NCBI GenBank assembly: GCA_938002955.1
Contig: CALLAA010000023.1
Location: forward strand, 1 to 57,630
Direction: 5' to 3'
Length of the DNA stretch: 57,630 nucleotides
From: an uncultured Acidimicrobiales bacterium
GTDB lineage: Bacteria; Actinomycetota; Acidimicrobiia; Acidimicrobiales; SHLQ01
Made by a program: the position numbers and the translations under genes. Position 1 is the first letter of the stretch. Every line of letters begins with the position of its first letter. Positions 52,545 through 57,465 of the stretch are shown here, one piece after another. Under the pieces are notes generated by a model. That model was not told the origin of the DNA. It worked only from the letters and a program-made list of their open reading frames with translations, and ran no database searches.

Positions 52545-53404
52545 ATCAGGCTCCATGTTTCGGCGTCGTATCCGGCGTCTCGCATATCTTCGAGAAACGC
52601 CGTTCCGTTCTTTGGAAGAACTCCGAGGATCGCTCCGCCGCTGCCAGCGAAGTTCGCCGATGCTCCGAACGACCGAGCCATGTCGATCATGGTTTGCTGG
52701 CGCGGTGCGATATCCATGATCGTGCGTCGGATATTGAACGTCTCATCGATCGTGTGCTTCAACTCATGAACATCGCGCCGCTCGATCGCCGATGCGGCAC
52801 TCCGGGCAAGGCGGGCAAGCTGCGCCCAGACCGGATCGCTAGCGTCGCGTTGCTTGCGGAGATCGGTGTGGGCGTGTCCGCTCGCCTCGGCGGCTTGCTC
52901 GGACCAGGCGAGGTACAGCGGAACCGGCGGGTCGGGAACATCGAGCGGGGCAAGAACCGGCTCTCGGCCAAACTCCATGAGCCCACTCACTGCGTGGCTT
53001 TGGATGACTTGGTCCTGCCAGCCGCCGGCGATGCCGAGGTCAGCGCGCTCTACCCGATGTGCAAGCCGGCCAATCTCCACTGTCGACAGATCGGCACCCA
53101 CGTACTGGTCGAGCGCTCGAAGCGTCGCGATCACGATGGCGCTCGAACCTGCAAGACCCACCGAGCGCGGAATGTTGGTCTCGATCGAGATCGGCACCTC
53201 GGCGGCCTCCGGGGCCACTGATTCTGCGAATCGTGCGCGCGTGGCGATGACGAGTTCCGGTGGTTCAGCAGCGCCATCGAGACCGGCAGTTGCCGTGGCG
53301 GCAAAGAACGGAAGCACGACCGAGCACACCGCTCCCCCAAAGCCGTCCGATGGATTGCCGGCAACTGCAGCACGTGAGGGAACGGTTGCGGACGTTGACG
53401 GCAC
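52541..53404 (-). CDS. GHMP-family sugar/mevalonate-type kinase
   Basis: 287 residues. GHMP motif 1 is AGNPSDGFGGAVCS, motif 2 PRSVGLAGSSAIVIATLRAL, and motif 3 FAGSGGAILGVLP near the C-terminus. The NPSD pattern is close to glucuronokinase-type and related small-molecule kinases rather than galactokinase. The substrate cannot be assigned. The start is GTG 53404, one base into the stop of the preceding Dabb gene; the stop is shared with the next gene's start. It is the middle of a three-gene unit. Confidence 0.82.
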   Translation of the reverse strand: MPSTSATVPSRAAVAGNPSDGFGGAVCSVVLPFFAATATAGLDGAAEPPELVIATRARFAESVAPEAAEVPISIETNIPRSVGLAGSSAIVIATLRALDQYVGADLSTVEIGRLAHRVERADLGIAGGWQDQVIQSHAVSGLMEFGREPVLAPLDVPDPPVPLYLAWSEQAAEASGHAHTDLRKQRDASDPVWAQLARLARSAASAIERRDVHELKHTIDETFNIRRTIMDIAPRQQTMIDMARSFGASANFAGSGGAILGVLPKNGTAFLEDMRDAGYDAETWSLM

Positions 53405-53700
53405 TAGTCGATGATGTGTTGCACAGCGGTGCGGTTCGCCAGAACCGGGCGGATCCGCTCGGTGATCACGGCGATGTGGTCGGGGTTTTCGCTGTACGCC
53501 CGGAAGCCAGCTTCATCATCAAAATCTGCGACCAGCACGATGTCGAAGTTTCCTTCGGCGAGTCCAGCATCTCGTCCGATCGAATACGAACGAATCTCGG
53601 GTACCAGTCCCGGCAGTGTTTCGAGGCCAGCAACGATCGCTGCTGCATCCTCATTGGTGGATTCGGCGGTCAACTGCATCATCACAACATGTCGGAGCAT
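53404..53700 (-). CDS. Dabb-domain protein (stress-response A/B barrel)
   Basis: 98 residues from ATG 53700; GTG 53706 is possible. The dimeric alpha-beta barrel is recognised from LRHVVMMQLTA, GLETLPGLVPEIRSYSIGRD, NFDIVLVADFDDEAGFRAYSENPDH (residues about 52-76) and TAVQHIID. Dabb proteins are small enzymes or chaperones; function is uncertain. TACTAT lies six bases before the ATG at 53707-53712 with no Shine-Dalgarno, which suggests a leaderless message. It leads the kinase-thioesterase unit. Confidence 0.82.
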   Translation of the reverse strand: MLRHVVMMQLTAESTNEDAAAIVAGLETLPGLVPEIRSYSIGRDAGLAEGNFDIVLVADFDDEAGFRAYSENPDHIAVITERIRPVLANRTAVQHIID

Positions 53701-53768
53701 GACCACATAGTAGGTCTAGCGGCGCGCCGGGCCTGTTGTTGGCGGGACATCAGCCCAAACGCGAAAGT

Positions 53769-53878
53769 GGCCCGCTCCATGGCGGCGGAACCAAGAGCGG
53801 GCCTCGTTGAAACGGGAGGTGGCGGAACCTCCCAGAATGTTTCAACGATCGTGCGTCGAGGACGGCGGGTCATCGACG
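53769..53878. ncRNA. Candidate structured RNA with three hairpins
   Basis: Three hairpins follow one another in DNA without a gene. Hairpin A at 53769-53803 has a perfect 9-base stem (GGCCCGCTC). Hairpin B at 53804-53848 has a perfect 10-base outer stem (TCGTTGAAAC), a perfect 7-base inner stem (GGGAGGT) and a GGCGGA loop; on its right side AGAAT bulges. Hairpin C at 53854-53878 has a 6-base stem (CGTCGA). The identical 9-mer GGCGGAACC occurs at 53784 and 53821, and GGCGG recurs in loop C. On the minus strand the loops would be C-rich. The strand is not known. Confidence 0.45.
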
Positions 53879-54003
53879 GCGATGTAGAGAACTTACCTTT
53901 GAGTAGCTTAACGAAAGATCGTCGTTTCCAACTCGATATCCGGGACTGTACGAATCGTCACATGGTGACGTCACGCAGGTCACAGCCCGCTGATAGAGCG
54001 AGA

Positions 54004-54465
54004 TTAACGTCGCGGACCTGGCTGAAAGCTGGTGCGCTCGTCGACGATTGGCTGCAAGGACAGCCGAGGCGTGCGAAGCAGCGGACCGCTCTGTTGGGGC
54101 ACGTTTCGAGGCGCCCCGTTGCTCTCGAGCGTAAAGACCGCCCATCCGTAGGCGATGAGGGCAACGTCGACCAACAGGTGCACGGCCCAAAGCACCGACC
54201 ACGACCGAGCGAGCAGCAGCGTGAAGAGCGCCGCGACGACGAGCGCAACGAGCACCTCGCGGCGGCGTTTACGAGCCATCGTCGGCGTACGCGGGGCTGC
54301 CAGCGCGGACGGCGGGCGGCTTCCGAGTGGCCCAGCGGGGAGTCCCATTCCCGAGCCGGAGAGGAACCGGTCGCGGCTCCAGGCCCAGACCCAACCAGCC
54401 CAGCCGAGGGCGATAACAAGAACGACGAGAAACAGCATGTGAGGCAGGAACTCTTCTACTAGCAA
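54004..54465 (-). CDS. Membrane protein, unknown
   Basis: 153 residues. A hydrophobic N-terminal helix (HMLFLVVLVIALGWAGWVWAW), a polar Pro/Arg-rich middle, then two more hydrophobic stretches (VLVALVVAALFTLLLA and VLWAVHLLVDVALIAYGWAVF) and a polar end. No family is recognised. It begins 32 bases after the moaC stop on the same strand, so it may belong to that unit. The 300 bases to its left (53701-54003) hold the candidate structured RNA and no gene. Confidence 0.6.
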   Translation of the reverse strand: MLVEEFLPHMLFLVVLVIALGWAGWVWAWSRDRFLSGSGMGLPAGPLGSRPPSALAAPRTPTMARKRRREVLVALVVAALFTLLLARSWSVLWAVHLLVDVALIAYGWAVFTLESNGAPRNVPQQSGPLLRTPRLSLQPIVDERTSFQPGPRR

Positions 54466-57261: not shown

Positions 57262-57453
57262 CTGCCAGCGGAGCGAACACCGCCTCCGGCGCCCAGGCTC
57301 CGTGCCGCATGAACGGCCTCCGGAGGAGAAGACAGACGTGGCTGCCAGCGGAGCGAACACCGCCTCCGGCGCCCAGGCTCCGTGCCGCATGAACGGCCTC
57401 CGGAGGAGAAGACGAGGCTCCGTGCCGCATGAACGGCCTCCGGAGGAGAAGAC
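57262..57453. repeat. Tandem repeats bearing CCTCCGGAGG palindromes
   Basis: A 72-base unit occurs at 57262-57333 and again, identical, at 57342-57413 (80-base period). Its last 39 bases recur a third time at 57415-57453. Each copy of the 39-mer holds the perfect palindrome CCTCCGGAGG (57317, 57397 and 57437). The array lies between the convergent moeA and GalU-like genes. No open frame of interest crosses it. Confidence 0.92.
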
Positions 57454-57465
57454 AAGGCTCTGCAG

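Follow-up and report, generated by a model that had tools for sequence, protein, structure and literature searches.

The window, by which we mean the whole 57,630-nt stretch of DNA analysed here, carries on its minus strand moaA, moaC, a gene for an unassigned protein, the RNA described below, Dabb, GHMP kinase and acyl-CoA thioesterase, in this order. The protein encoded just upstream of the RNA has no Pfam match and a hydrophobic stretch at its start. Positions 53701–54003 had been described as free of genes in the initial annotation, in agreement with the flanking minus-strand ORFs, which reach 53706 (longest start; the ATG lies at 53700) and 54004. Longer ORFs spanning this gap (e.g., 53260–54462 on the plus strand) are mechanical.

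The initial annotation had also placed three hairpins in this gap, two of them abutting, and direct reading found them in the same places. On the minus strand, hairpin A (53769–53803) has a 9-bp outer stem and UCCGCC in its loop; it is a hairpin of the terminator type. Hairpin B (53804–53848) is built from a 10-bp lower stem, a 5-nt bulge on the 5′ side (directly read as AGAAT in plus-strand letters, 53834–53838) and a 7-bp upper stem with an apical UCCGCC. The weakly conserved hairpin C (53854–53878) follows 5 bases past B, with a 6-bp stem and CCGCC in the loop. As noted before, the 9-mer GGCGGAACC is shared by A (53784–53792) and B (53821–53829), and GGCGG recurs in C (53864–53868). Folding of the 303-base gap resulted in z = −4.44 for the minus strand and −3.94 for the plus strand, and none of 100 shuffles folded equally well on either of them. 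The 80-base segment comprising A and B (−49.3 kcal/mol) was more stable than all 11,510 sampled 80-base segments (every 10 bases, both strands).

From candidate −10 box to tail, the proposed sRNA gene, which we label class I, is taken to extend from 53755 to 53911 on the minus strand. The match to our covariance model R1 (53755–53851) has 105 bits and that to model R3 has 78 bits, the window copy being among the training sequences of both models. The candidate −10 box, TAAGCT (53905–53910), and TTGGAA (53926–53931) are separated by a spacer of 15, so the weak promoter suggested in the initial annotation is present as a sequence pair (minus strand, 53931–53926 and 53910–53905), but a promoter scan did not find it: at the class I locus of the window the scan returned 0 promoters and 0 terminators. 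By reading, a candidate promoter at that distance is common to only one other copy, that of G008. Past hairpin A, the tail ACTTTCGCGTTTGG (53755–53768) forms a weak T-run in the window. A T-run of the CTTTCTTTTT or CTCTTCTTTTT type follows hairpin A in 5 of the 8 copies described below, with a poorer tail in the window, G008 and G002. Regarding the features of a trans-encoded sRNA gene, class I thus combines a terminator-type hairpin and a T-run in 5/8 copies with a promoter that is a candidate.

Conservation and Covariation of the Class I RNA within the Genus

Comparison of the gap with 98 genomes by BLAST (the own genome included) located the hairpin region in 7 additional genomes of the genus (E ≤ 1.4e-7). 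In 91 of the 98 genomes at least one match reached E ≤ 1, but the best one in a genome other than those 7 was short (E 0.001). R1 was built from the resulting 8 copies, themselves first located by BLAST, and detects class I in 8 of the 11 genus genomes at 91–109 bits, with no comparable score in the other 3, which are drafts of 85–93% completeness. By reading, hairpin C is present as a CCGCC-loop hairpin in 4 of the 8 copies.

In the alignment of these copies (A2) both apical UCCGCC loops are identical in 8/8, while stem columns average 89% identity and the bulge varies. The 29 pairs give 232 paired cells, 97% of which are standard: 204 are Watson-Crick and 21 are G·U on the minus strand, with 0 A·C. 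Read on the plus strand, an A·C cell would become G·U; this count is somewhat favoured, as structure prediction was carried out for the minus strand. Changes on both sides occurred in 6 of the 29 pairs, amounting to 15 cells, versus a mean of 5.8 cells in shuffles (none of 500 reached this value). Two further measures were little or no better than shuffles in this small set of 8 related sequences: double-sided pairs numbered 6 versus 4.0 (a value reached by 34 of 500 shuffles), and further pair types 14 versus 16.2 (reached by 490 of 500). Compensatory stem changes across relatives were what the initial annotation had proposed to look for. Together with the 21 G·U versus 0 A·C cells they support its view of a structured RNA with C-rich loops, and from this comparison of copies the RNA strand is the minus strand.

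REP-like DNA hairpins that are dispersed as repeats and have no function as RNA would also be palindromic and intergenic, but compensatory changes and G·U pairs on one strand only are hard to reconcile with them, and we regard this explanation as scarcely tenable. Membership in a repeat family was rejected as well: BLAST found one full-length copy in the own genome, and the match that comes next among the 32 with E ≤ 10 covers 38 bases (E 0.005).

Genomic Context of the Class I RNA

Of the 8 class I copies, 7 are directly followed by Dabb (6 copies) or GHMP kinase (1 copy), which could indicate a cis-acting leader (attenuator) of the Dabb-GHMP kinase-thioesterase genes. By reading, a TANNNT box precedes the downstream start codon by 12–13 bases in all 7 co-directional copies; in the window it is TACTAT (53707–53712, minus strand), ahead of the Dabb ATG at 53700–53698. 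Across 1,085 gene starts predicted in stretches of G003 and G007, two genomes of the genus, TANNNT occurs 170 times at −15 to −11, versus 7 times in each neighbouring bin. This peak seems to mark leaderless genes, which seem to be common in the genus. Since such a leaderless-type box precedes its start, the downstream gene looks like a unit of its own. In G002, moreover, the RNA is divergent from Dabb and points towards tRNA-Ala. With a putative −10 box between RNA and gene in 7/7 copies and the divergent arrangement in G002, we rejected the leader on sequence evidence and consider it very improbable.

The upstream side bears on another explanation, namely that the hairpins derive from the upstream moaC and unassigned-protein genes, either as their terminator or 3′ UTR product or as an sRNA processed from it. 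In the window the upstream genes are co-directional, the 5′ end of class I is placed only tentatively, and hairpin A resembles a terminator, all of which would fit. On the other hand, the upstream neighbours are different in G003, G007 and G009, the upstream gene of G002 points away, and the loops are more conserved than the stems. We consider an origin from the 3′ UTR distinctly unlikely, also in view of the class III loci presented below. Judged by sequence, the locus very probably holds a small-RNA gene that stands on its own on the minus strand.

The Class I RNA Belongs to a Family of Predicted RNAs with CCGCC Loops

Two points escaped the initial annotation: hairpin A is of the terminator type, and the locus belongs to a larger RNA family with multiple copies. 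Scoring with R1, which was trained on class I only, resulted in 22.5–40.6 bits for 14 of 15 loci picked as other classes; L122 reached 16 bits and did not stand out from the chance matches of that search (14.5–17.3). The classes are our own labels: class I is the RNA of the window, class II was found in G007 and G009, class III is the most widespread, and class IV occurs in G001, G002, G005, G006, G007, G009 and G010, with the G001 copy at 28.6 bits only. Together with L052, the single member of its unclassed type, G007 has five RNAs of the family. The genome of the window (G000) has, in addition to class I, one class III copy (G000:C217:18153-18241). By reading, the members have a common design, in which a lower stem, a bulge on the 5′ side, an upper stem and a CCGCC loop are followed by a terminator hairpin with a T-run. 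Some members, class I included, carry a CCGCC loop inside the terminator hairpin too.

R3 was built from 19 copies (classes I–IV and L052), and the counts for the RNA family lean on our own model because of this training set. Matches were obtained in 18 of 19 genomes of the taxonomic family at E ≤ 0.01 and in 66 of 397 genomes of the order (37 of 203 genera) at E ≤ 0.001. The class sample gave matches in 16 of 296 genomes, 1 of them outside the order, and the phylum sample in 6 of 296, 1 of them outside the class; the two samples overlap, and strict filters were applied beyond the taxonomic family. All 20 new loci that were read (8 from the taxonomic family, 12 from outside) have CCGCC in the main hairpin, while most of the remaining order-level matches were counted from model score alone. 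To judge the noise of R3 we searched 858 kb, consisting of the window plus 40/60 large G007/G003 stretches, with stretches containing other known classes left out. Class I copies scored 73–78 bits, partly by construction, and the next match reached 24.7 bits. Matches at 25–29 bits can be false, as L266 (29.2 bits) and L267 (24.7 bits) resemble ordinary terminators. These matches and readings together indicate other members of the RNA family in the same genome and across the order.

Weak matches that read as coding sequence or as ordinary terminators were dropped (L050, L051, L055, L064, L101, L105, L109, L118, L120, L266 and L267). L049/L104 from G017, a terminator with a TTCCGCC loop, and L106 from G018 were kept outside the classes. 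Genomes of family f54 harbour a related-looking RNA (L059, L060, L062) of another layout, in which two hairpins have CCCGCC loops and the first stem differs; it was left out of R3, and two tRNA genes are located near L060.

Class III RNAs

For class III we collected stretches of the GTDB collection with the pattern GGGATCCGCCGCCCN{0,2}GTGTYGC, which yielded 61 stretches. The titles of 43 name Acidimicrobi- or Microthrix, 11 give only Actinobacteria/actinobacterium/Actinomycetes/Actinomycetota, and 7 bear other names, some of which are likely mislabelled bins. Two records (L170 and L196) are titled Candidatus Microthrix, an organism of sludge. L162, L185 and L194 lie inside predicted genes and were dropped from the class. 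The remaining 58 of 61 read as an RNA with gene layout, and 44 of them carry all three automatic marks (the 5′ arm of the second hairpin, a C-rich first loop and a run of four T). One or two marks are missing in 14 of the 58, in some cases due to the strict mark pattern or a contig end.

A first hairpin with CCGCC is present in 54 of the 58 loci, the exceptions being L182, L211, L216 and L218. The search pattern left this hairpin unconstrained. Its stem was analysed in the 51 loci with the loop form NC[CT]CGCC, which was the condition for the test, and shows 9 distinct 5′ arms, to which the 3′ arms correspond. Uninterrupted pairs averaged 7.2, versus 3.5 in shuffled sequences (maximum 4.7 of 500), even though 5 of the 51 stems score 0 since they lack the pair that directly adjoins the loop. 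The second hairpin and the terminator were analysed with 56 of the 58 loci, all of which matched; L171 and L174, near stretch ends, were omitted. In this alignment double-sided changes occur in 25 of 29 pairs, 92.4% of 1,369 cells are paired, and the covariation score is 0.495 versus 0.123 in shuffles, with one modelled pair that never forms. The alignment was fitted to R3, and because the pattern fixed the 3′ arm and the loop of the second hairpin, most of the covariation of class III is carried by the terminator. More generally, the pair counts of alignments A9 and A10 lean towards structure, as the alignments were fitted to our models.

TANNNT begins 17–23 bases before the first loop in 51/51 examined copies, so that, of the features of a trans-encoded sRNA gene, this class shows a putative positioned −10 box (51/51) and T-runs. 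No overlap with predicted genes was seen in 56 of the 58 loci. Among the 58 loci, the upstream gene is encoded on the opposite strand in 19 and on the same strand in 35 (4 stretches have none), and the downstream gene is on the other strand in 32. Upstream genes on the opposite strand and the positioned −10 box in these related RNAs count against a 3′ UTR origin of class I.

Comparison to Known RNA Families

Rfam 15 (4227 models) gave 0 gathering matches in the whole window, and at E ≤ 10 the region 53400–54300 gave one chance-like match only (TYMV_upPK, E 8.8). For 18 + 7 related loci no Rfam match at E ≤ 5 lies on the element, except a minus-strand match to DnaX (E 1.8) in L165. By this comparison the class I locus looks like an uncatalogued bacterial small-RNA gene.

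The nearest likeness is to 6C RNA (RF01066; B11 in mycobacteria), an actinobacterial sRNA of about 100 nt with two pyrimidine-loop stem-loops, the second of which is part of the terminator hairpin. It has been defined by two stem-loops, each typically with six C (PMC4046766), and extra copies were reported for some genomes (PMC9569102). In the window RNA, hairpins B and A expose pyrimidine loops and A is of the terminator type, with a weak T-run in G000. Instead of the six-C loops, it has UCCGCC loops, invariant in 8/8 copies. The longest C run in the loops is 2, and RF01066 does not match, which bears out the wording of the initial annotation that the array is reminiscent of 6C but distinct from it. 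Membership in 6C was rejected, with no match at the gathering score (47 bits) in the window and none at E ≤ 10 in 53400–54300. In G000, the draft genome of the window, which was searched at E ≤ 10, and in G004 and G005, RF01066 was not found. Other loci of the genus do have 6C-type matches, over the cut-off in G003 (47.5 bits) and at 31–42 bits in 7 more genomes; none of the 14 control genomes passed the cut-off in the same search, and C. glutamicum, one of these controls, has a match below it. The 6C copies of the genus show the loops UUUCCCCC and UCCCCCC, the latter in the terminator hairpin. At all 8 of these loci (L065–L072) TGACGTCA is found within GGTGNCTGACGTCAC, 77–99 bases before the 6C match. 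TGACGTCA is also located upstream of the window RNA (53966–53973), which may be due to chance, since it occurs 3 times in the window.

Arrays of repeated loops are known from other systems. LhrC of Listeria exists as small sets of paralogs that present a repeated short C-rich seed in several loops; by description, its seed and host group differ from those of the CCGCC-loop RNAs. Protein-sequestering RNAs of the CsrB/RsmY type are hairpin arrays with an identical loop motif, GGA. The loops found here are UCCGCC, and GGA would be present only on the plus strand, which is disfavoured by the G·U count. In EcpR1 (SmelC291), a trans-acting sRNA of Sinorhizobium, a strongly conserved loop begins with UCCGCC (UCCGCCGCAUCU), as reported in PMC4414408 and PMC3927594. 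Unlike the RNA described here, EcpR1 is alphaproteobacterial and its two hairpins have different loops, the second being UCCUCG; the comparison relates to the loop motif given in these papers only. We assume that the likeness is due to convergence. As the two similar loops come from different phyla, they suggest that high-G+C bacteria arrived at the seed UCCGCC on more than one occasion.

Putative Targets and Mode of Action

The loop is probably the working part of these RNAs, because it is constant across unrelated stems. CCGCC had been regarded as anti-Shine-Dalgarno-like in the initial annotation, which is not supported as a general rule: at the 1,085 predicted starts, GGAGG occurs 85 times at −15 to −6 as the Shine-Dalgarno signal, while GGCGGA occurs 10 times in the same two bins, similar to other bins (1–8 each), and thus has no peak at ribosome-binding positions. 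In favour of such a reading, GGCGGA between −25 and +5 is present at 25 starts in sense and 12 in antisense orientation, a weak sense-strand excess, although 21% of its permutations reach 25. In the same range, the full complement of UUCCGCC, GGCGGAA, is if anything rare, with 1 of 1,085 starts (mean of permutations 4.3), and GGCGGAT is present at 10 of 1,085 (4% of permutations as high). As 11 motifs and 3 ranges were tried, we give no weight to GGCGGAT. In the absence of a start-site peak for GGCGGA, targets are probably few or located elsewhere, or the partner is a protein.

In the latter case the identical loops would form a protein-binding site, and the RNA would bind or titrate an RNA-binding protein, with the paralogs as alternative sponges or clients. 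The same loop in RNAs with unrelated stems and the lack of a prominent common target motif at translation starts would suit such a role. We know of no candidate protein for a CCGCC loop. Against it, both precedents with such loops act by pairing (PMC10470900, PMC4414408), and we consider the protein site unlikely.

For B11 of M. abscessus it was reported that either C-rich loop represses eccB4 via a G tract in the 5′ UTR and that compensatory mutations restore repression (PMC10470900). Repression of gcrA and dnaA by EcpR1 is described as depending on pairing of its UCCGCC loop; two-base loop changes abolished repression and compensatory changes restored it in part, while a stronger change was not restored (PMC4414408). 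By analogy, we lean slightly towards seed pairing as the mechanism of the CCGCC-loop RNAs; if the EcpR1 parallel is set aside, the case would be evenly balanced. An RNA of about 100–150 nt, ending in hairpin A, would use its stems to present two or three copies of the short single-stranded seed UUCCGCC. The seed would pair in trans with a limited set of G-rich, GGCGGA-like mRNA sites, in the way the C-rich loops of 6C/B11 and the UCCGCC loop of EcpR1 act. We infer that the class I RNA is transcribed and has a regulatory function. Taken as a whole, a free-standing sRNA gene that belongs to the CCGCC-loop family and pairs in trans via its loops is the explanation that we favour by a modest margin of confidence.

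A limited literature search retrieved no work on regulatory RNA or CCGCC-loop sRNAs of Acidimicrobiia. It is conceivable, but somewhat short of an even bet in our view, that Acidimicrobiia possess an undescribed layer of RNA regulation, distinct from and parallel to 6C. It would comprise 1–5 sRNAs in each genome, as counted by reading in 11 genomes of a single genus. Their stems would be unrelated and their CCGCC loop “code” common, directed at one shared partner, which would be either an RNA-binding protein dedicated to them or a small regulon of mRNAs rich in G. Covariation-supported RNAs with one loop in unrelated stems offer a ready-made seed to test, and the contrast to 6C with its C-run loops can show how the loop sequence sets target choice.

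Apart from the RNA locus, the window contains a tandem repeat array directly after moeA (57262–57460). Its unit is 80 bases long and is present in 1.9 perfect copies at 57262–57413, with a further partial copy of the GGCTCCGTGCCGCATGAACGGCCTCCGGAGGAGAAGAC part.
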